In this document: one piece after another, positions 3,001-50,750 of the stretch
How positions within the stretch are numbered: the stretch's first letter is position 1
Layout of the letters: the number at the start of each line of letters is the position of its first letter
Source: Daphnia pulex
Taxonomy: Eukaryota; Arthropoda; Branchiopoda; Diplostraca; Daphniidae
Assembly: GCF_021134715.1 (NCBI RefSeq)
Contig: NC_060019.1
Location: forward strand, 7,750,001-7,814,000
Direction: 5' to 3'
Length of the DNA: 64,000 nucleotides
Made by a program: the position numbers and the translations under genes
Notes under the pieces: generated by a model
Database searches by the model: none
What the model was told of the DNA's origin: nothing
What the model saw: the letters and a program-made list of their open reading frames with translations, nothing else

Positions 3001-6000
3001 TTTGATGTGGCAGCCGAAAAAATGTCGGCCACGGTTTCTTGATATTATATTAACAAAAAAGATAGTTGCTTCTTTTTATTGTTGTTTCTTTATTTGCCAG
3101 GGTCGTCTGCTGCTCGGTTACCTCCCCGCACCCAACGACGGTTTTGTACTAAACAGCTGTCAATTGACGCCGACCTCCCCACCATCCAAACCACCACCCA
3201 CTCCTTAATAATCGATCATTAAAAGAGGGTCGATATAAGAAAAATGGTGGAATGAAGGAAACGGATGAAATCTGGGAGAATGACGGACACGTGACCACAC
3301 AAAGAGCAATCTTGTTTTTATTTCGAGATGAAGACCCCACGGGGCTTTCTCCCCTTGCCTTTTTTCTCTCTCTGTGACGTCACCACTTCTCTCTCATCCG
3401 ATACCCCACCATCATCATCAAACAGCGCAAATCAATGGACTTTAGTTATTTCCCCATAAGGGGGCGTGACATTCCTGCAGTTAAGTACGTGTGTGTGTGA
3501 AGAGTAAATCGATGGCTTCTTTTGTTTCTATTTTCAATTGGCGACGACGAAAATAATGGGGGGGAAATTCTACACTGTAAAAATGCGAAATGGGAGAGTC
3601 TCTCCTTTCTGGCCCATCTGGCAACGTTCCACCCGAAATGATCAAAATGCACACACAACTCTGATCACACACACACAACTTTTTTCTGCATTAATTGTGA
3701 ACTGGGAAGAAGAAGAAAAAATAAAGAAGAAGAAGAAGAAGAAGAGTTTCCACCGATATAACCCACGGGGGTGTTTTATCTTCTCCCACAGAAAGCGAAT
3801 GGAAAGAGAAGAAGAAGGAGAGAAAGAAAGAATAAAGAAAAAAGGAGAAGCTGAAATCAACGGCCATTTTAGCGACGACGGCGTGGCTGCCAGTCGGGTA
3901 AACGCCCTCTGACGAATTCGTCGTTAATCAACGGATTTCAATCGCCCAAAAACTGCCAATGCATCGCCAATGATTGGCAAACTGATCCACTCGTCTTGTC
4001 CGTCCATTTCCGGACGATCCTTTCCATTTCACGATGATTGCCGGCCATCTTTGAGTCTCCTTTGTTCGATGGACGAGTCGCCTCCAACGATGGCCGTTGC
4101 TTGCGCCACGTTATTTTATCCCCCCTTCCCTTTTCTCCTACAGCTTTTCGCCTCCCAATTTTGTAGGAAGGCGGAATTTGGAAAATAAAAATTCCTCTCT
4201 CCAAAATTAAACACGTTTTTTCGCCATTTTTCTATCATTTCCCCTGTAGAAAAAGTTGCAATTCAACTCGGCTTCAAAAATATGCGAATCAAGACGGTAA
4301 AAGAAAACGATCGGCGCGGTTTTGTGTGTGTCGACGCTGCCGCCACCACACGGTCGGAGAGAGTATCATTTCCGCATTCCACTTTCCACTGTTTAGCATC
4401 AACTCTCTCTCAGAGGAGGGGGGCTAAAGGTTTTTTTGCGCTCTCTCACAACAGCAGTCGGCCCGAAAGCCGTTGAGACGAGCGGTCGCTCCTGTACAGC
4501 GCTCTTCTTTTATTTTTTTTTTACACACAAAACATTTTAATATAATCCGAGAAAAAGAAAAACTTTTTTTCTTTTATTTAAAAAAAAAAAAAAAACTGTT
4601 TTTTAGTGTCTGCTGTGTCTGTGTGTGTTGTGTTGTGTGCATTGTGACAGGATGACCGTTGGATTACCGCACGAGGAATAAATCAGAAAAATCATCTGAA
4701 AGAAAAAAAAAGCATCCAAGTAAATATGAGCGAGAGAGGTTCTTTTATTTTTTCTTCTTTTGTCTGGTCAAGTGACTATGCGGCGACGCAGAAACAAATA
4801 TAGACTCGGTGTAGAAGAAGAAAATGGTGGTGGTGTTCATTTGGCGTCGGATGGCGTCGTCCGTTACGTGTTGATTACCGTTGCGACGACAATCAATTAG
4901 TCTGACGCGCTTTTCTCACAAGTTTCATCACCACTTCCTTATGCGACTCGCTTCATCCACTTCCTTTTTTGGCATCTTCTTTTGGACAAGGAGAGAGAAA
5001 ATTGTCTTTTTTAGTTTTCGACGGCCCATTTTCTTTAATTAGATTCAGCCTGGGTTTGTTTTTTTTTGTGTTGCAATCATTGTTTTTGTTTTTTAATGAA
5101 TGGACGCGCGTGATCGATCACCTGTAATTAGCGAGCCCTCCTTTTGTCTGTAACACTTTTTTTTCTTTGATTATTTGCATTGACACTTTGTTTTTTGTTT
5201 CTCCGGCGGAGTATTTGATCCGCACCGGAACTCTTTTGTTGTTGAAGCTTCTTTTATACTGTACACACATCACATTCCCGGTAGTAGTAGTAGGCTATTA
5301 TTGATTCAAAGTTGCTGCATGCAACTCTTTTCATCTTTTTTCCCAAACTGCCGAGATGAAAGTGAACGAAAGATGCCCCTACACTCGAAAGTCGATTGTT
5401 TTGTTAGTCAATTGAAAAAGATAATGACGTGAGTTTTTCCCCCTGCTCCCAACCAGAGTAGTGGTCGTCACAGACAGGGGAAAAAAAGTGTCTTTGTACC
5501 GGGGGTCTATAATGAGATTAGCCACTGGATTGAGCCCGCACGCGTGTGTGTGTGTGTGCTAAGACCCATCGTTCATAATTAAACGTCAGAGAGAGAGTAA
5601 AAAGGAGGAAGTGGGCAAAAAGGAGATTTTCCACGAGGAACGGATGTTGAACATGAAATGTGAGGGACACGCCCCCTTTTTAACACTGCCGCCAGATGGT
5701 GTGTTTGTATCCTCTGAGGGCCTTTATCAGACACGACCCTCGAGCGTATTGATTTCATCTCCCCTACTCTCCCATCTTCCGTTGTTGATCGTTTCCCCGT
5801 GATACCAATCACGATCGGTGATTTGGAGCGTGATTGAGCTTTTCATAATATCCATCTGCCAAAATATATATATAAAGCCCCGGGAAAATTTTTGGCGGTA
5901 TTGTCCGACCCATTAAATCACTTGAATAAATAAAAGAATCCGACCGTCTCTATTATTAGACACTGAAAAATATTTTCATTGTCGACAATCAGATAGTCCA

Positions 6001-6240
6001 GGACAAGTTTTTTTCTTTCAAAAAAAGGGGACAGAGTCGTTAGTCTGGTCGACGTGACTAGAGGCCACAAAAAAGAAACACACATTTTTGAACAGGGGGG
6101 AATAGACAACCGACATTTTGTCTCGAGTTGGAAAGTCGCCATCGATTGTGTGTCTCTTTTTATTTTCTCCGCTCAATCATCTGGCAGCAAACAAATGGCA
6201 ACATTTCATTCATTCAATTCATCCATTTTTTAATTTACAG
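1..6240. other. Non-coding upstream region / first intron of scribbler
   Basis: I found no ORF here with recognisable protein sequence or consistent splice phase. The open frames are low-complexity translations of CT-, GA- and T-rich DNA. The stretch ends in a good splice acceptor (TTTACAG at 6234-6240), so at least its right part is an intron of scribbler, and one or more non-coding first exons probably lie inside. Visible content: GAA/CTT triplet tracts (about 486-502, 721-743, 2766-2800, 2922-2934, 3705-3752), GT/CA runs (5542-5558), repeated AAAATGGC/GCCATTTT motifs, a palindromic CRE (3375-3382) and a CTCF-like site (5689-5702). No transcription start could be fixed. Confidence 0.6.
3375..3382. 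promoter_or_regulatory. Palindromic CRE/ATF-type site TGACGTCA
   Basis: An exact TGACGTCA palindrome in the scribbler upstream region. It is the classical binding site of CREB/ATF bZIP factors. Function is inferred from the motif only. Confidence 0.3.
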
Positions 6241-6458
6241 GTAATCGTCTGCTAGTCGCGCCAAATTCAAATCATCGCCGAATTGAAAGAAGAAGATTAT
6301 TCATTCAAATAAATAGCCAAGTGATTGCGTGAGTGTTGGTGTAGTAGTGGTGACATTGTTTTGCCCTCCGTCCCGATGGTTGGTGCGCCGGCCGCCGCCT
6401 GTGAGGCTCGCGCGCCCACAACCGACGCCGCCCGCAGCAGCGCCGCGTTGCCGGACCA

Positions 6459-9400
6459 ATGAAAGAGTCGGGCCCGCTGGCTGCTGCAGGACTGGAGGAG
6501 GCGCGGCCCGATTCTCTGGGTTGTGCACTTGCGCCCAGCGCCGCCGTTGCTTCGATTAACAACAACAACAATAATAATAATAATATTATCATCAGCAATA
6601 ACAACAACAACAACGTCGTGTCTCCAGTGTCGGTCCCCAATCCGGCAGCAGTAGGCCCAGCCACCAGCGCCGCTGGCCAGCCAACGACGACGACCGGTGG
6701 AAGGTCGGGCGACCCGACGAATTTCGAGTACGAAGACTCCGAATGGGATGTTGGCATTGGCAATTTAATTATCGATTTAGACGCCGACATTGAAAAGAAT
6801 AATTCAGGAATTACCTCAGCTACAACTACACCGACCCAGAAAGGGAATCAACAGGGTTCCGGCGCCGGAATGCCCAGCGGAACCAGTCCAAATAGTGGAG
6901 CTACCGGCTCATCGCCCTTAAACACAAACAACGGCAGTGCTGCGGCTGTGACGGCAACTACGACAACAAACTCTACTACGGCCGGAGCCACAACAACAAC
7001 AGTCAAAAGTGGTGGTGGTGGGGGCAGTAACGGGTCGGCGGGTGGGAAGATGGCAGCGGCCGTCCACTCGGCCACAGTTGAACCCGGTTTGAAAATGAAG
7101 ATTAAACGGACAAAACCTGGGCCAGGCACCAGGTCCTCGGAGACCAAACACGAAATCGTCAAGACCTCGGAGGGTAATGCAGCAGCAGCAGCAACAACAA
7201 CAACTGGATCAGTGCAACAACCTACAACTGGGCCGGCAGTTTCTTCGTCTGCAGCAGCAATCGGTTCGCCGACGGCCGTCACAGCTGTGACGGCCACTGT
7301 GGCAGCAGCAGCAGCAGCCGTCCGCCAGCCTCAACTGGCCGGAGCCAACAACAACAACAATAATAACAACAACAACAACAACAAGCGTGGACCGTCGGCC
7401 AACCACAAAAGAGACAAGTCCAGGGAGAAAGTTGCCAATCCAGGGGGAGCTGTCAAAATGCAAACAACAACTGGATCATCCGTGGGGACGTCGACGACGA
7501 CGACAGCAGCGGCCGTCACGGCAACCGCATCCGTGACGGGAATGATGACGACATCGTCGGGAGTCACGGTGACTCCGGTAACCGTCTCCGGGGGCGGATC
7601 GCCGGCCTCTTTACGCGCCGGAATGGTCGTCCCATCTTGCACGACAAGCAGTTTGACAGTGACTCCGGTTGTCGTCGGGGGAGGAATGTTGCCCAGCAGC
7701 CGGACTCCTCCACTCTCCTCCTCCACTGTTGTCCTTCCGGCCGGAATGGTCAACGGAGGAGGACCCACCAACGGGTCCAGTCCCACCTATCCCGGCTGCA
7801 ACAGCACGGCATCTCCCGTGACAGTCACGCCAGTCGGTGTCACCTCTCTTCTCAACAACCTGGGCGGCCCAGGCCGTCCAGACGCTCTCATTGTTGGCAC
7901 AAATAAAACCTCCTCGTCGTCCGGCTTGATGACGTCGACTTCTTCTTGCACAGAGCCGCCGAGTCCCCCAGCCAAGAAATGGCGCACATCTGGCCATCTG
8001 GCGTCGGATAAAGTAAGTTCTTGTTTAATTCCTTAGACTTTTATTTTATTTGCCTTGACACTATATAATTATACGACTGGTACTATCATTATTATGACTT
8101 TCTTGTTTGAAGAAGAAGCCCCAAAAAAAAAAAAAAGAAATAATAAAAACGAAAAAGGCAATGATTTTTATTAGCAACAAAGATGAAAGTAATAATCTCT
8201 ATTTAGAAGTTGTCTCCCAAGACTTGGCAACTGTTTGGGGAAGAAAAAGAAAACGCTCGTTGCTGCTAGACACACACACAAACTTTTCCCCGAAAAGTAA
8301 TGTGCTCTCTCGCGTGTGTGTGTGTTTGGAATTTTGGATTCGGTTCTGCTGCTGCTGCTCGAAGGAATATCAGCAATGCAATTAGTTGAGAGAAACTTTT
8401 CTTCAGCCCAAGTTGCTGCTGCTGCAGTTTGCCCTTGGGGAAATTTGAGTTTCGGCTACCCAAACTATTATTTTTCGAGAATTTCCCATTTTCTGTGCCT
8501 TTCATCATTGGATTCTGATTCGTCTTTTTTTTTTAAAGAAACAAGATTTTATATTTTTCTTAGTCGTCAAAAGTTTTTGTTTGCTCTGCTAATCTTTTTT
8601 GAGAAATGGGTCTGGCAATTATTATTTTTGACCTGGTGGTTGCAGAAACCTATAATAACCCCTCGACAGCTCTGGGGGGCGTCTCGGGGGACCAATCACA
8701 GTTAAGTGAGGGGGGAGGGTTAGAAAAATTGGGGAAAAGGTTAGGTCAAAGATGGCAGAGTAAATTGCAGACGAACTTTTCCACACACACAAGTCTCAGC
8801 ATGATTTACTCGATGGTCGTCGCGTGTGTGTCTGCAGTGCCGGTTAAAGTGTGTGAATCTTAAAACAACAATGACCAACAACAAGTTTTCTTAAGTTCTT
8901 GTGGAAAATTTAATTTTTCTCCCCTGTGAATTTTGTCTCCACAACGTGGCGTTCCATTTAGTTACAAGTACATGTAATCCGTTTAGTGGGGACTCGGGAT
9001 GCAAAGTTTGGTGATTATTCATTAAGAGTTTGCGTGTGTAATTGACGTCATCGCCATTTTGGAAAGACGAACGTGGGTTGAATGAATCGACGAGCAAAGT
9101 CGTCGTGATGGCCCAACAAATGTTGACGGTGATGGCCGAAGCTGCTGCCCAGCAGCAGCAGCACGGCACTTCTCCCACCAGTCAACCACAACAACATGCC
9201 ACGCCACGAGTCAAAGTCAAAGGCCGTCGAAGGGTCAAGAGTCGGACGTCGTACTCGCTTTCTCTTAAATTGAAAGCCGTCGAAGAAGCTGAACGATCGG
9301 GACTGAGAGCCGCTGCTCTTAATTTAGACATAGACGAACGAGTTTTACGACAATGGCTCACGAAAGCCGAAGAATTGCGTCAGGCTGGTCTTACCAATGC

Positions 9401-12400
9401 CGGATCGACCCGCCGGCTCAGATCTCGTTCGGCCTCCAAAATCGCCTCCGGTGTCTCATCTTCTCCCGAACACGAGGTTCATTCTACCGTGTCCCCAGCT
9501 GCTATATACTTTATCTCTTGTAATGTTGTTTATTATTCAATCTAACAAAAAGTGTGTTTTTATTATATATTTTGACAGGTTGCGGATCCAAGTCCTCCGC
9601 CGCCAGCACTGTCGACAGCCAGCAGCGTGACGGGTGGAAATCGGAGCGTGACTCTATTGGCTGTGACACCACCCAGTGCCGGATTGCTGGTCAACGGTGT
9701 GGGGGGCCATAGTAATCCATCGATGATGTCGGTCACATCTTCTTCTAGTCCCAGTGCCGATGGCTCTCCGTGCTCCTCATCCCATTCGACATCCTGCTCA
9801 TCGTCGCTGGTCGTCTCCAGAGCGGATGCTTGTGTGGGCACGTGCAGTGCCTCCACCATGACGGAACCAGAGTGCCTAGGACCCTGTGAACCGGGCACCG
9901 CCGTCACCTTAGAAGGAATCGTTTGGCATGAAACAGAAGGAGGTTCGTTTAGTTTGTTTTTCTTAAATAATAATACATTCCGTTCACGTCATTCAACACA
10001 TCTTATTCTTCTCCACACACAGGTGTTTTAGTCGTCAATGTCACATGGCGAGGTAAAACATATGTTGGCACATTGATGGATTGTACCAAAAATGACTGGG
10101 CACCGCCAAGGTATATCAATTTCATTCACCATCTCATTGGCCACATTCCAAAACAATTTTGTTTTATATTTTTTAGATTCTGCGATTCCCCGACGAGTGA
10201 TGCCGAGTCCCGTGCACCAAAAGGCCGTGCCAAAAGAGGCCGCGGAGCGACCAGCACGCCAGTGCCGACCGGCGGGGCCGGTGGTGTCGGAGTAGCCGGA
10301 TTAGCCGATGCCTCGTTGAGTCCCATGCACAGCAAATTGCGGAATGGAGCTAAAGGGCGACGTGGAGTGGGCGGTGGCAATGGCGGAGGTGGACTGCCGG
10401 CCCCACCCAGTCCAGCCAAAGAAGTTTTGACTTCGGGTGGCAAGCGAAAAGGCAGCAGCGGCGGCAGTGGACCTAGTGGTGGTGCTAGTGGCGGAGTCAA
10501 AAACCTGGACGAGGCGGCCAACGGCAGTGCCAACAAACGGAGTCGTTCCAGTTCGAGAGGAGCCGGGTCTTCCAGCCCGTCCATGGATCCACCGCCTGTC
10601 GTGTCGACGGCAGCGTCTCCAATGTTAATCGAGTGCCCGGAGCCCAACTGTTCCAAGAAATATCGACACATCAACGGCCTCAAATATCACCAGTCACACG
10701 CTCACGGAGGTATCAGCACGGTCAACGCCAACGGTGGAGTGGCCGCTGTGGCGGCGGAAGCGAATTTCGACGAAGATTCCAATCAGGACGTGACGATGGT
10801 GACACCTACCAAGAGTGGCAAAGAAGTGCCAACGACGACGCCTCAACCGGCTGCTGAAGAGGCCATGGAAGTGGCTCCTTTCACCGGCAAAGTGCCGATG
10901 CCTCCGCCACCAGAGTCGACGACGACGACGACTACTTCTAGTGGCACGTCGTCGACGAGTGCCTCCTCATTGAATCCCGTTTCAGTTGGTGTCACGACTG
11001 CAACGGATTCTGCCGCTTCGCCACAGAAACCCCCAAAGCCCAGCAGCCCACGGCTTCCGGCACCTAGTCCCATCCAACTTCTTTCGACGTCATCTTCGTC
11101 ATCCTCCTCCCCGTCTGTGATACCGACCGACGCTACTCCTTCGCCCGTCACTAATGGATCCAGCAAACCGGCCGTCGAGCATCTCTTCACTCCCATCGTC
11201 ACTCAGCCAATCAACACGACGTCCACCACCACCAACACCACCACACCTTCTTCGACTGCCTGGACTACTCTGACGCCCAATCCGCGTAGTCCGGCCATGG
11301 CCGTCACTGCTACTACTCCCAAAGTGACTGGCTCTGACGCCGAATCGGTCGAGCGGAAGGAAAGGTCAAAGCACAAGAAGAAGAACAAGGACAAGGATCG
11401 TGAACGCAACGAAAGGAGGGATCACGCCGCCAAGAAATCTCCTGGAGCGCCGACAGTGACGGCCAACGGATCGCTCTACCACAATATGACGTCAGCCGTC
11501 GCCAATCCGTCCAGTCCGGCCTCTACGGGCACCATCGGAGCCGATCCTTCTGGCGTTAACTCATTAACTTCCGGCATTGGCGCCACCAATGGCCCCATAC
11601 TCGCCACCGATTCCAACCGCGAAGATGTACAAAGTCCAGCTTATTCGGACATCTCGGACGCCAACGATCAGTCACCTTCCTTACTTGACGCCGAGCTGTT
11701 GGAGAGCAAGAAAGTGGCGGAAAAATTAGCGGCCGAAGCGGCTGCTTGTCTTCCACCAGTGGCCGGCCCTGGAGCTGGACCCAGTGTTCATCCGGCTTTG
11801 GGTTCTTTCAGCATGTACCCGTTTTATGGTCAACCCGCGTTCATGCCACCAACGGCAGCCGACCAGCAGGCCGGTAAAATGCTGATGAAGCCCGAAGAGA
11901 GAAGAGAAGATCCAGCTGTCAAACCTATTCCGGCTCAAGCCGCCGGAATTCCGCCACTACCACCACCACCACCTACATTGCCGGCTAGCAGTGGTCATCC
12001 TGGTCCAGGTGCTTTGTATCAACCGCCCTACGGATTCATTCCACCTTATCCGGCGTATCCAATGGATCCAGTGATGATTGATCCAACCGCTTCCGCCGCC
12101 AGATCGACCAGCAAGACACCGGATCAAGGAGGATTGGGTATCCCTCCAGCTCATTCGCCGAGAAGGATCGACTCGAGTCCGGGTCGTAAGGACGAAAAGA
12201 AACCTCCTATCGGCACGTCCGTCACACCCGTGGCGCCCATCAAGAGCGATCCGGCTTCTCTGCCACCATCCATGGCCATTAGCATGACAAAGGATCCCAT
12301 CAAGGAAGAAATGAAGAAAATGGCAACTCCATCCATAGAAAAGATTCTTCCTCCTTCATCTCTACCACTTCCCGGTCCTATCAGCGTTCCGACTGGCCCT

Positions 12401-12709
12401 AGTCCGTTGGGTCCTCCCGGCATGCCCGGATCCGGTCCACCTGGATCTGGTCCACCGGGCCAAGGAGCTTTCGACACGGCCATGTTGTACCAACGGCAAC
12501 ATCAAGAGGATCTGCGTCGCTTCTACAACGTTTACGGTGGTGACGATCCGATGCTCGGTCCAGGCCCTGGCCATCCAGCAGGCATGGGCATGTTTCCGCC
12601 TCCGATGAATTCACCAGGTTCTGGTCCTCCTGGACCAGGTTGGATGGTCAATGGTCCCAAGAGTTCACCACTAGATCCTCAACAGCCTCCGTCTCAACAG
12701 CAGATGATG

Positions 12710-12747
<38 letters not shown>

Positions 12748-12982
12748 ACAACATAACCAACAGCAGCAGCAGTTGCAGCAGATTCAACAGCATATACACC
12801 AGCAGCAACAAATCCAACAGCAACAGCACCAACAGCAATTTCAGCAACAATTGCAACATCAGCTACAACTCCAGCAGCAGCATCAGCAACAACAACATCA
12901 ACAGCAGCAGCAACAGCAACAGATGCAGCAACACATGCAAAACCAGGCGCTCCATCAGCACCTTCAGCAGCAACATCAACAA

Positions 12983-13020
<38 letters not shown>

Positions 13021-13024
13021 ACAG

Positions 13025-13073
<49 letters not shown>

Positions 13074-14074
13074 AACAGCATCAATCGCGCAAATCTTCGT
13101 CCAAATCTTCGTCGTCTATGCCCAGCTCGGCTTCGAGTCCAAAATTGCGGCCGCCTTCCGTCGACCGGAAACAGGAGCATAGAGATAAGGAGCAACAGAG
13201 GCCCAATGAAAAGATCTCGGAAGGAGTTAAACCGACGATGGAAACTCAAGGACCACCACCTCCGCCCGGACCACCGCCAGGTGCCGGTTTGTCGCCGTAC
13301 GGAATGTATCCCAACTTGTATCCGTATGGATTACCGTTCGACCCATCTCATCCAGCCTACCGGAACACGATGGCTTCCATGTTGGGTGGATCACCTCACA
13401 ATCCATTCGGTCCAGACCCGAGAAACGGCCCGTCTCCGTTTGGTATTCCCCACCATCCGCACCAGTTGTCGCCGGCTGGAATGAGAGGCTACCCGTCGGG
13501 TCCGGGCGGATTTCCCGGTCCTTCTGGTGAAGATTTGAGCAGAGCGCACGCGCTGGAAATGCTACAGCACCAAGCCAACCAGTATTACGCATCACTGGCT
13601 GGCCCACCTCCACCACCTCCACCTTCATCGGCCCAGCAAGGAGGAGCTCCGACGAGTTCTGGCCCTATTTCCGGCCCTGGTTCCCAGCAATCTCAATCTC
13701 AGCAGCACAAAATCCACGAGCTGGCGGAACGGGCCATGAAGTCACCTCCTGCCTCGCCGGCCGTCGGCCACGACAAGAACCAGGTTTCAATGGGTTCTGG
13801 TCTCGGTCTAATACCTCCCAATCCGTCGACAACGCCAACTGGGCCCGGCCAAATGGCCAAGATGTCGATGAACATGGACCGTCGCTCTCCGTCGATGGGT
13901 TCCAACAATCCACCTCGATCTTTACTCAGTTCGTCGGTCGGGCAGCCCGGAGCTCCGCCGATGCCGCCATCCTCTGCTGGATTCCTCCCGCCTTCGTTAG
14001 CCGCTTCAAATCATCATCAGTATCCGCCTTCCGGCTCGCCCTATGGCGGACCTAAACCTTTGCTTCGACCGTAG
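6459..14074 (+). CDS. sbb: Scribbler/Brakeless, ZNF608/ZNF609-family transcriptional co-regulator, long isoform
   Basis: Four coding exons fit in phase: 6459-8012, 9579-9942, 10023-10110, 10177-14074, giving 1967 residues. The first coding exon starts at 6241 after TTTACAG; 6459 is the first ATG in frame after several in-frame stops. Family signatures: an acidic N-terminal block with [13 protein letters not shown] (about residue 90), the block [19 protein letters not shown], then [12 protein letters not shown] and [18 protein letters not shown], a single C2H2 finger starting [19 protein letters not shown] (about 821-845), and [11 protein letters not shown]. These match animal ZNF608/ZNF609 and Drosophila scribbler, nuclear co-repressor/adaptor proteins. 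The rest is disordered: poly-Asn (6559-6614, 7347-7383), Ser/Thr/Pro-rich stretches, a very long Gln/His tract and Pro-rich segments. The 10111-10176 intron is in frame, so retention would insert residues without a stop. Family identity is firm; exact start and untranslated exons are inferred. Confidence 0.93.
8013..9041 (+). other. First coding intron of scribbler, left part
   Basis: It opens with GTAAGT after the codon for Lys518. I see AT-rich and GT/CA-rich DNA and no exon with usable acceptor and donor. It leads into the candidate internal promoter at 9043. Confidence 0.5.
9043..9062 (+). promoter_or_regulatory. Candidate internal promoter of scribbler: CRE plus YY1/Pho-type motif
   Basis: TGACGTCA (9043-9050) is followed at once by CGCCATTTTGG (9052-9062), a YY1/Pleiohomeotic-type core. 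The pair lies about 50 bases before the ATG of the alternative first exon at 9108. An in-frame stop at 9039-9041 and the lack of a pyrimidine-rich acceptor between there and 9108 favour a transcription start here over an internal exon. Motif evidence only. Confidence 0.4.
9108..9476 (+). CDS. sbb: Alternative first coding exon of scribbler carrying a Brinker-like helix-turn-helix
   Basis: The ATG at 9108 opens 123 codons ending at a GAG|GTTCAT donor in phase 0. The next exon (9579) starts in phase 0 (VADPSPPP), so this exon and the long first exon are interchangeable. The joined isoform would have 1572 residues and keep the zinc finger. After a short Gln-rich start and a basic patch ([11 protein letters not shown]), residues about 42-92 read [15 protein letters not shown], then [10 protein letters not shown], then [15 protein letters not shown]. 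This follows the layout of Brinker/CENP-B-type HTH DNA-binding domains: aromatic-rich FKLK-like first helix, Ala-rich second helix, R-x-x-QWL recognition helix. The exon ends basic and Ser-rich. The ORF and phases are seen; the HTH family and isoform are inferred. A separate short gene is unlikely because the exon ends in a donor. Confidence 0.65.
12694..13081 (+). repeat. Long CAG/CAA glutamine-repeat tract in scribbler
   Basis: About 130 codons, almost all CAG or CAA, broken by His, Met, Leu, Ile, Phe, Asn and Ala codons in the first two thirds and nearly pure from about 12988. The mixed CAG/CAA use should slow repeat expansion compared with pure CAG. The complementary strand reads as poly-Leu and is a shadow. 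Confidence 0.9.
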
Positions 14075-14230
14075 ATATACATATTTATATATTCATCAAT
14101 TTTTTCCCCTTTTGTTGTTTATCCTGTCACATCATCCTCCGTGTTAGCCATCGCCGCACGCAAGTGATCTCTTTCTCCCTTCGCTTCATCCATTTTTTTT
14201 AACTTGTACATCCTCTTTATCACGCTGCCT

Positions 14231-14256
14231 ACACACACACACACACACACACACAC
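14231..14256. repeat. (AC)13 microsatellite
   Basis: Uninterrupted AC dinucleotide run in the presumed scribbler 3' UTR. With the TG run at 14391 it could form a stem of about 24 base pairs in the transcript. Confidence 0.9.
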
Positions 14257-14390
14257 CCATCGCACTTATATGCGAGCGTGTACAGTTCCACTACCATCTT
14301 TATTTTGATAAATTCATCCAATTCGGCTTATTATATATTTTCGTGTCGTTGTTGTTGTGTAAAGATAGGATATCCAGGGAGCCATTTACC

Positions 14391-14413
14391 TGTGTGTGTG
14401 TGTGTGTGTGTGT
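14391..14413. repeat. (TG)11 microsatellite
   Basis: Uninterrupted TG dinucleotide run about 135 bases after the AC run, complementary to it. Confidence 0.9.
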
Positions 14414-16277
14414 ATTTAGGGAAGTCTGCACCATTTAATTTAAGTAAAAAAAAAAAAAACTAAAAAGGCAAAAATAATATTCATTCAATCATTTCCCTTG
14501 TTGTTTGCGTTTTCTCACCTTTGTGATATACCTCTCTCTCACTCTCTGCGCTGGACTCGCTCTTATCAAAATTATCAAAATTATTTTTTTTAAAAGATTG
14601 CAAAAGAGAAAACAAAAATAATGAATCAACTTCTGCAAAAAAAAAAGATTGGATTTTAAAAAAGAAATTTACTTGATTAACATCCGCGACATCCCCCTTC
14701 CTTTTCAACTCTCTCCTGATGACAAAATGATTTTTCTCATTAAAGGTGGCGGCCCCCTTTTTTCTTCGTCCTTTTGTCTTAAAAATTACAAAAAAGAAAA
14801 TGATTCAAAATTTTGATTGACGGGGGGTCACAGTGAAAAAGTAGAGTTTGAAATATGAAAAAACGCGCGCGCCTGCTTCTCTCCTCGTCGTCCTTCATTT
14901 TCTGGTGTGTACAAAAATTTAATAATTAATAATAATAAGTTTATTATTTCCAGCTGAAAATGTTTCCTTGTGCATTGTGTTTCCCCCCCCCCACATTTTT
15001 TCGTACTGTGTGTTTGTGTGAGTGTCTATGATGCGCAAAATTTTGCCAGAAAAATTTAGAGAAACTTTTTTTTTTCTTTTTTCTTTTGAATTTGGAAATG
15101 TGTAATAAGATGAAAAATGTTGATTTCTTTAAATATGACATTATGATGTGCCGTGTGTGATTTCTATGCTCTCGCTTCTTTTATTTTTATTTGATTTTTT
15201 TTTCCTCGTCTAGGATTCCGGGAACGTCCGTAAAACATTTTCATTGTCCCGTTTTCCCTACGTCGTCACAGCAACTCCCCTTTATCGCGCCCGCCGACTA
15301 ACCCAACTGTTTTTTTTTTTCTTCACTCCCCCTCGTACGCTTGTTAAATATGATTGAAATTCACACCACCAACCACACAAAATACAATCAAGATTTTTTC
15401 GAAAAAAAAACAAACAAAACAAACTTAACCCAAAAAGTTTCGTGGATTTCGTGGTACCGTTGAAACACCCAAATTTGGTCACGAACTAGCGCGGATGCTG
15501 TTTGCAACTGGTTTGAAAAGTGAAAAGCCGTGAATCATCACGCTGGCCACCTAGTGGATGGCTCACGGGGTTTTTGTTTATTGGCCTCGCACCGGGAGCC
15601 TGGAATCTGTACACACGAGAGAAAAAGAAAAAATCAGGAAACTTTAGCGCTCACGCCGAAAGGAAGTGGATTGGTTTCCCGGCTGATTTGGTGAGCGTGA
15701 CCGCAGCAACGGGAGGGAGTGGGGTGAGCGATCAACCGAATCCGTAATATACTTTGCGTCGCCACCACCAATTTATTGAACCCATTTATTTCCGTTTTCT
15801 CTAGTACTGCTGCACATTGGCATCCAGAAATAAGCCAGTGGCCAGTTGTCATGTGACGTATACACACACACAGTTAGACCCTCTCTCGTTCCATCCCCTT
15901 GGCTACTTTTGATGCTGTGCATAACGGGAACCCCTCCTCTGTGTGTGTGTGTGTGTATCTGGCCATGGGCATTCGGCGTGAGTCGTGCGCACGCGACACA
16001 CACAGAGGAGAGAGAGAGGAAGAGTTATATGAGGACGGCCAGTCTGGAGGCAACCACCGGCTCGATCGGTTCCTTTAACGTTTCTTCGTTTTTTTCCGTT
16101 TTCCACCCCCCAAAACAAAATAATATAGGCAAAACTCACGCACACCACGTTCATCTCTTTTTCATTGGCGGGCGGTTATTTCTTTTTTGAAAATTTTTCG
16201 TTTGATAATAAGAAAAGGACAATTTATTTTTCCACCTCCGCCGATTTAAGACTAGCGAATTTTAAAAAGAAGTTCCA

Positions 16278-38517: not shown

Positions 38518-40101
38518 TTACACTTTACGGAAGTACTGTAATAAGTTATTAGGTTTTTTGGTTGCGATTGGCTTCTTATTTTTCTCCCCAGCCAGCAGTT
38601 CCTTCTGGATCTCCACCGGGAGCTCGCGAAAAACTTGAGGATCGACACCTTTTGGACAATCAAAATCTGCTGACTGTTGGGAGGTGCTTGATGATGGTAT
38701 TTGACACTTCATATCTTCTAAAACTTCTTGACGGATGTCATCAGGTAATTCTTGGAGGACAGATTCGTCAAAGCGTCCACGCTTAGTTGGAGGTGGCAAA
38801 GTTTCGTTCGGTCGCGATGAACTAGTAAAATATTTGTTGATGGAATTTTTCGCTGGGCTTTCGATGCCAGAGGGAAAACCAGAGAACGAAATACCCAACA
38901 ATGTAACTTGCCACGATTCATCGCAATTTACTACCTTTTCGAAGAGATTCATTAGAGTCGTGATGACTTTTTTTTCTTGATTTTCACTTAACGGTCCTAA
39001 TGGCGCGTTGCTAGGAACTCCAGTCGTAAGATCTATTGCAGTCTGGCGGGCCTCTCTGACACTGTGATTGGTCGCATGTAATTTCCGAACTGTCAATTTA
39101 ACTTGACTTGGTCTACGGCCATCCTTCTCCACTAACTCCCAAACTCGATCTAGCAGGCACTTGAGCTTCTTGCGCACTTCAGTTTCACTTTTGATTGTAG
39201 GAAATCCATCTTCGGCTCCAATAGATTTCGGTCTGTCGGTTATTTTGACACGACTATCGTCGATCCCAAAACTCAGTTGTTGAATTTGGTTAGCTGTTTT
39301 GACTCCAAGTGCTTCAATAAGCTTAAACAAATCTGCTGCTTGAAGTTTTTCTATGGTGTCAATACCAAGAACCTCTAGTTTTCTGTTCATTGCTGAACCA
39401 ATTCCAGGAATATTTCTAGGATGCTTCAATGATTTCATCAAGTTTAAAGATGATGCTGAGAACAAGGTGGTTTGCTGATTTGGTTTATGGGTTGCTCCAA
39501 CCAATTTAGCTAGAAGCTTGTTACAAGCAATTCCAGCACAGGAGGTGATTCCAAGTTCACTTTTTAGTTGATTTCGCATTTCCTGAGCAATAATAGAACC
39601 TTCTTTTAGTCTGTCTGTACAACCACATGCACAAGTTTCATCACTGTTCTTTTCTTCGAAAATGTGTCCAGAAACTTCTGGTTTAATTTCAGGGGACTTG
39701 TTGATTTTGTGGGAAATGTCAATAAAATTTTCATCCAAGCCAAGTTTCTCCACAAATGGGCTGAACGATTGAAGAATTTGATAAATCTTCTCTGACATGT
39801 CTCTATACTTTTTCAAGTCCTCTCCATTTGCAAGTACTAAGGAAGGGCACTTTTCTAGTGCGGTCTTTATTGACATAAGTTTCTCAACACCCAGCGCTCT
39901 TGCTTCATAGTTACAGGTTACAACAATATTTTTCTGTTTGATACCAAGTGGTTTGCCACATAAAGATGGATTTAGAATCATTTCAACTTGGGCATAAAAA
40001 CAGTCGATATCTATATGGATGATAACGCGTTCATGTTTTTCACTTGACTGAATGGCAACACTATTGTACGAGAAATCGTCACCTAAATCTTCTTCCTCCA
40101 T
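38518..40101 (-). CDS. POLI: DNA polymerase iota, Y-family translesion polymerase
   Basis: A single uninterrupted ORF of 527 residues. The Y-family active site is intact: HIDIDCFYAQVE (metal ligand D31) and LGLDENFIDIS (D123, E124). Pol iota signatures include VVTCNYEARALGV, ANGEDLKKYRDMS and SCAGIACNKLLAKLVGATHKPNQ, in the order palm/fingers, thumb (HPRNIPGIGSAMNRKL), then little finger (about 290-415). Two ubiquitin-binding motifs of the ELPxxIQxEL type lie near residues 453-470 and 490-503. The last ten residues, NNLLQYFRKV, look like a PCNA-interacting PIP-box variant (LLxYF). The protein inserts nucleotides opposite DNA lesions at stalled forks. It is shorter than the human protein, mainly between little finger and UBM2. 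It is intronless, unlike every other multi-domain gene here, and is divergent from DPM3. Confidence 0.96.
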   Translation of the reverse strand: MEEEDLGDDFSYNSVAIQSSEKHERVIIHIDIDCFYAQVEMILNPSLCGKPLGIKQKNIVVTCNYEARALGVEKLMSIKTALEKCPSLVLANGEDLKKYRDMSEKIYQILQSFSPFVEKLGLDENFIDISHKINKSPEIKPEVSGHIFEEKNSDETCACGCTDRLKEGSIIAQEMRNQLKSELGITSCAGIACNKLLAKLVGATHKPNQQTTLFSASSLNLMKSLKHPRNIPGIGSAMNRKLEVLGIDTIEKLQAADLFKLIEALGVKTANQIQQLSFGIDDSRVKITDRPKSIGAEDGFPTIKSETEVRKKLKCLLDRVWELVEKDGRRPSQVKLTVRKLHATNHSVREARQTAIDLTTGVPSNAPLGPLSENQEKKVITTLMNLFEKVVNCDESWQVTLLGISFSGFPSGIESPAKNSINKYFTSSSRPNETLPPPTKRGRFDESVLQELPDDIRQEVLEDMKCQIPSSSTSQQSADFDCPKGVDPQVFRELPVEIQKELLAGEKNKKPIATKKPNNLLQYFRKV

Positions 40102-50199: not shown

Positions 50200-50750
50200 A
50201 TGGCTACTGGCGGACCGTCAAGACGACGATCAAACCCTGCTAAAGGTGAACTGAGTGATGATCAGATGAATAGTATTTATGAAGCCTTTGCTGTATTTGA
50301 TGTAGAAAAAAGTGGCAAAATTGCATCCCAAAACCTCAAGGTATGAAAGAGTTATAAGACTATTTTGAAAGACGAGTAATTTTTGTTTTCTAGCTGGCAA
50401 TGAGAGCACTTGGTTTCGAACCCCGAAGAGAGGAGATAAAAAAGATTATCAGTGAATATGTCAAAGATGAATCTGATTACATTACTTTAGAACAATTTGT
50501 GAGTCTCATGACAGAGAAGATAGCTGACAAGGGAGCAAAGGAAGAAATTTTCAAGGCTTTTTGCCTTTTTGATGACGACCATACTGGAAAAATCACATTC
50601 AAGAACCTCAAACGTGTAGCTGAGGAACTTGGAGAAACTCTCAGTGAAGAAGAACTTAGAGAGATGATTACAGAAGCAGATCAAGACAATGATGGAGAAA
50701 TTAACCAAGATGAATTCTTAAGAATCATGAAAAAGACATGTCTTTACTGA
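50200..50750 (+). CDS. Centrin, EF-hand protein of centrioles and basal bodies
   Basis: Two exons, 50200-50340 and 50394-50750 (phase 0), give 165 residues. A basic N-terminus ([20 protein letters not shown]) precedes four EF-hand units. EF1 ([12 protein letters not shown]) and EF2 have lost standard ligands, EF3 is [12 protein letters not shown], and EF4 ([12 protein letters not shown]) is canonical. The ending [11 protein letters not shown] is the centrin-type C-terminus, which separates it from calmodulin. Centrins act in centriole duplication and basal body structure and, for the centrin-2 type, in nucleotide excision repair with XPC. I do not assign a paralogue number. Confidence 0.94.

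Follow-up and report, generated by a model that had tools for sequence, protein, structure and literature searches.

The window analyzed in the present study, a stretch of 64,000 nucleotides from Daphnia pulex, carries a gene that we take to be scribbler, the orthologue of ZNF608/609. Scribbler/brakeless of Drosophila and ZNF608/ZNF609 of vertebrates were regarded as the same gene on the basis of shared motifs, namely an acidic motif in the long first exon and the VLVVNVTWR...PPR exon, together with one C2H2-like motif (C-x4-C-x12-H, read by eye) in the last coding exon used. No Pfam family, zinc fingers included, was matched at E up to 0.1 by the 356-aa shared piece that holds the C2H2-like motif, and none was matched by 157 aa taken from the long first exon (E up to 0.1) or by this exon as a whole (E up to 1). 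Therefore, the name scribbler/ZNF608/609 rests on the motifs listed above and on the initial annotation. Very long, nearly pure poly-Q tracts were observed in 10177-14074, and the long first exon contains poly-N and runs of A/T-rich residues. Elsewhere in the window, a 527-codon ORF on the minus strand (38518-40101) presumably resembles a Y-family DNA polymerase, and a 116-codon ORF (50400-50750) presumably resembles a centrin/EF-hand protein in its C-terminal part. A candidate alternative 5' coding exon is located after the long first exon of scribbler and before the exon at 9579, and the features of this region are collected in Table 1.

Table 1. Features of the scribbler locus and of the candidate exon (a slash marks the exon end at a donor).
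Feature	Position	Strand	Description
Scribbler long first coding exon	6459..8012	+	518 codons; phase 0 end; donor AAA/GTAAGT, 9.77 bits (general donor weights)
CRE TGACGTCA (9043-9050) and YY1/Pho-like site GCCATTTTGG (9053-9062)	9043..9062	+	Possible promoter elements; presumed function
Upstream ORF	9082..9108	+	8 codons; stop (9106-9108) overlaps the exon ATG (TGATG)
Candidate alternative 5' coding exon	9108..9476	+	123 codons from ATG; phase 0 end; open frame, codon score, in-frame join
HTH-like stretch, residues 45-91	9240..9380	+	Pfam, PHROGs, pairwise comparison with Brinker
Putative 102-nt intron	9477..9578	+	GTTCAT...TTTTGACAG; AG ends at 9578; weak donor
Next scribbler exon, common to both isoforms	9579..9942	+	Phase 0 start; in-frame translation
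Shared scribbler exon	10023..10110	+	In-frame translation
Last shared coding exon used, to stop codon	10177..14074	+	C2H2-like motif by eye; long poly-Q tract

The initial annotation had claimed an intact 123-codon ORF at 9108-9476 whose phase matches that of scribbler, and both claims held. No stop occurs from the ATG at 9108 through 9476, a GT follows immediately, the exon at 9579 begins in phase 0, and the long first exon ends in phase 0 at 8012. An in-frame join to the shared scribbler exons is thus possible: the candidate exon followed by the three shared exons translates into 1572 aa with no inner stop, and the long first exon on the same shared exons yields 1967 aa. The frame around the exon contains no stop from 9042 until one that ends at 9545, where translation of the unspliced sequence would stop. 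An open frame of this length is weak evidence when taken alone, because 482 of the 55,980 overlapping 123-codon control windows, which were drawn from stretches that we took as noncoding, were likewise free of stops. The codon score of the frame (0.276) was above that of every one of the 55,980 control windows (maximum 0.218), and unrecognized exons, which are possible among the control stretches, would make this test stricter. The score was trained on 11 ORFs of our own choice, three of which are exons of scribbler itself. The other two forward frames contain 6 and 3 stops over the exon. Most of the codon score is due to the Q/A/S-rich ends of the exon; the HTH part by itself scored 0.025, with -0.17 and -0.20 in the remaining two frames, and another codon model gave negative values for several windows of 14 codons within the HTH core, with a minimum of -0.61, the poorest of the exon. 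Both codon score and GC drop from the window 9483-9524 onward, slightly 3' of 9476.

Several HTH families were matched by the protein encoded in this exon. In Pfam, HTH_Tnp_1 (E 0.0012), HTH_29 (0.0077) and BrkDBD (0.013) were matched by the whole exon, and HTH_Tnp_1 (5e-4), BrkDBD (0.0033), HTH_29 (0.025) and CggR_N (0.062) by a 71-aa core, all over the same stretch. BrkDBD (PF09607) scored 15.9 bits with the whole exon, 16.6 with a 99-aa piece and 17.7 with the 71-aa core, and HTH_Tnp_1 (PF01527) scored 19.5, 19.7 and 20.7 bits; since these scores lie under the curated cut-offs of 23.4 and 24.1, respectively, formal membership was assigned for neither family. An HTH family was matched by none of 10 full-length and none of 9 core shuffles. 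Unrelated Pfam families were matched by 5 of the 10 full-length shuffles (E up to 1, once at 0.0038) and by 2 of the 9 core shuffles, and a lone E-value near 0.001 therefore carries little weight. In PHROGs, two transposase families were matched, at 2.3e-4 (residues 36-99) and 0.0042 (residues 42-89), and so were two families without an assigned function (0.04 and 0.35). The single NCBIfam match was weak (IS66 accessory protein, E 0.075), as was a non-HTH Pfam match of the 99-aa piece (FAM220, 0.45).

Pairwise comparison also pointed to Brinker. The Smith-Waterman alignment with the Brinker domain of PDB 2glo gave a z of 5.93, a score equaled by one of 2000 shuffles, whereas the z was at most 2.63 against four Tc1-like HTHs from the same genome. 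The likeness to the Brinker DNA-binding domain (PF09607) runs end to end, with the K-L, E, R-A-x-A, I, R, W-L and L-R positions in common; the differences are an identity of only 28%, a spacing between helices one and two that is 5 residues shorter in the candidate, and the score under the Pfam cut-off. BLASTP of the exon against Brinker returned no alignment at E up to 100, and in a phmmer search of the PDB 2glo was absent, the sole match being a ribosomal protein (E 0.68). AlphaFold without an alignment predicted two helices for the exon (mean pLDDT 59) and folded a core of 60 aa into one long helix (pLDDT 88; 59-73 in the other four models); these models give the HTH no support, yet, as models made without an alignment, they would not exclude one. 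Thus, the initial description of a Brinker/CENP-B-type HTH stood for the Brinker/transposase type, through Pfam, PHROGs and the pairwise match, but not for the BrkDBD cut-off, nor for CENP-B_N and HTH_psq, which were absent from the Pfam matches at E up to 1, in a search whose HMMER filters drop most weak matches. Judged by its sequence, the exon likely encodes an HTH of the Brinker/transposase type.

The genome (133,188,837 bases, 13 contigs) contains one copy of the exon and of the intron sequence that flanks it. The Brinker domain as a protein query found no match in this genome, and a BrkDBD profile search gave 0 candidates, a result that is uninformative as the control genomes gave 0 too. 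The HTH_Tnp_1 profile gave 11 matches, one of which is the 9108-9476 exon (19.6 bits). Among the matches elsewhere in the genome, L003, L008, L009 and L011 look to us like the N-termini of Tc1-type transposases, L002 and L004-L007 lie on the minus strand, and the eleventh match was assigned no locus. Neither the exon nor the shared scribbler region returned a match from the bacterial/archaeal and viral collections, as expected from collections without animals. In 8013-9578 we saw no transposon ends; the inverted repeats there consist mainly of A/T runs and of a CTG run. BrkDBD is described from Passer transposases and from POGK, which is domesticated (PMC7386202), and the exon could therefore stem either from an old transposase or from a brinker-like gene. 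The pogo/Passer transposases and POGK (BrkDBD + HTH_Tnp_Tc5 + DDE_1, as given there) resemble the candidate in the N-terminal position of a BrkDBD-type HTH before other domains, but they differ in that neither a second HTH (Pfam) nor a DDE part (Pfam and PHROGs) was found among the family matches of the exon.

A GT does stand in phase 0 after 9476, as the initial annotation had it, but the donor GAG/GTTCAT, whose weakness was not mentioned there, scored 0.94 bits compared with 9.77, 4.49 and 6.55 at the three other donors of the gene, all computed from general donor weights rather than from weights trained on the host genome. The donor of the 9579-9942 exon, GAG/GTTCGT, has the same unusual TTC but is better, and a donor at 9551 (6.45) sits 3' of the stop, 27 nt ahead of the acceptor. 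Two sets of splice weights trained on 264 kb were set aside: the first chose GTs within coding sequence, and the second retained only 13 introns, 2 of them implausibly placed within the long first exon, though 9477-9578 was also picked. The phase-1 donors at 9450 (3.21 bits) and 9519 (2.22 bits) outscore the one at 9476 on the general weights and are in frame with 10023 alone, so that a real scribbler exon might instead be joined to 10023, skipping 9579-9942 and setting the HTH directly before VLVVNVTWR. We consider this rather unlikely: the acceptor at 9579 is nearer and good-looking, to which either donor would be joined only with stops, and 9519 lies within AT-rich sequence of poor codon score. 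It appears highly improbable that the exon is a cassette which, placed after the long first exon and before 9579, would insert the HTH within the long protein; both neighbors are in phase 0 and no stop interrupts the frame back to 9042, but the AGs in 9042-9108 have poor pyrimidine tracts by eye.

The same weak donor would suit a coding exon that lies in the scribbler intron unjoined to scribbler, whether as part of a small gene of its own or of an old fragment of a transposase, and this type of HTH does occur in transposases. Against such an origin are the single copy, the missing transposon ends in 8013-9578 and the missing DDE part, and strand and exact phase agree with scribbler; we regard it as improbable. 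It is to a like degree improbable that 9108-9476 is a chance open intronic frame with a coincidental likeness to an HTH. The equally open control windows, the sub-threshold Pfam scores and the weak donor would fit with chance, but the codon score tops every control window, the match to Brinker would have to be accidental, and several HTH families fall on one stretch compared with 0 of 19 shuffles. In 9108-9476, an open frame, codon bias, HTH-like sequence and a phase match to scribbler come together, and the probable explanation is in our view that this exon is real and serves scribbler as an alternative 5' coding exon, which would provide an isoform that carries a Brinker-like HTH. The initial observation is thus partly confirmed, and the exon status of 9108-9476 is that of a candidate.

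Possible promoter elements were observed upstream of this candidate exon. A perfect copy of what we take to be a CRE, TGACGTCA, and a site that we take to be YY1/Pho-like, GCCATTTTGG, lie 46-65 nt 5' of the ATG. In the window, the CRE occurs 5 times against 1.08 expected and the YY1/Pho-like pattern 3 times against 0.50 expected, counts that weigh little because the motifs were noticed before being tested. No TCAKTY initiator was found in 8013-9200, the lone TATAWA in the same interval is at 8062, and Rfam gave 0 matches across 6000-15000. The short upstream ORF that overlaps the ATG could dampen or couple translation of the exon.

Herein, we propose how the isoform with the HTH might arise; its promoter, splicing, DNA binding and function are those that we infer. 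A promoter within intron 1, just 5' of 9108, would start transcription, and in the resulting mRNA 9108-9476 would be the first coding exon, spliced to 9579 over the 102-nt intron. The 1572-aa product would lose the long N-terminal segment with the acidic motif, keep the rest of the protein, and gain a basic patch and the Brinker/transposase-type HTH. The likely effect would be that the body of a co-regulator contacts DNA via its own HTH and not via partner factors. The isoform could bind DNA free of partners, or it could vie with the long form for cofactors. The initial interpretation is partly supported, through the HTH-like sequence and the phase match to scribbler; the switch from adaptor to sequence-specific DNA binder might follow from the proposed domain change.

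The scribbler/ZNF608/ZNF609 proteins are single-finger co-regulators, and how they are recruited to their targets is, to our knowledge, not settled. In the portions of the published reports available to us, Brakeless of the fly is counted as a co-repressor acting with Rpd3 and Tailless (PMC7536075), Zfp609 and scribbler are termed single zinc-finger proteins (PMC5263256), and a figure legend refers to several sbb transcripts in the fly (PMC5159827). The candidate HTH isoform differs from what is described in those portions, where the zinc finger alone is mentioned (PMC5159827, PMC5263256). The same portions of the scribbler/Zfp609 literature mention no HTH isoform, which does not prove that such an isoform is unreported, and it may already stand unremarked among the predicted isoforms of public gene models. 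We tentatively hypothesize, as a possible though doubtful extension, that the intronic promoter yields a direct sequence-specific binder, with a Brinker-type HTH on a ZNF608/609 body, which would be conserved in crustaceans or more widely and perhaps act at Brinker-like sites, linking scribbler to BMP/Dpp targets. If it is made, the HTH isoform would provide one direct path to DNA, and a testable motif, for scribbler/ZNF608/ZNF609.
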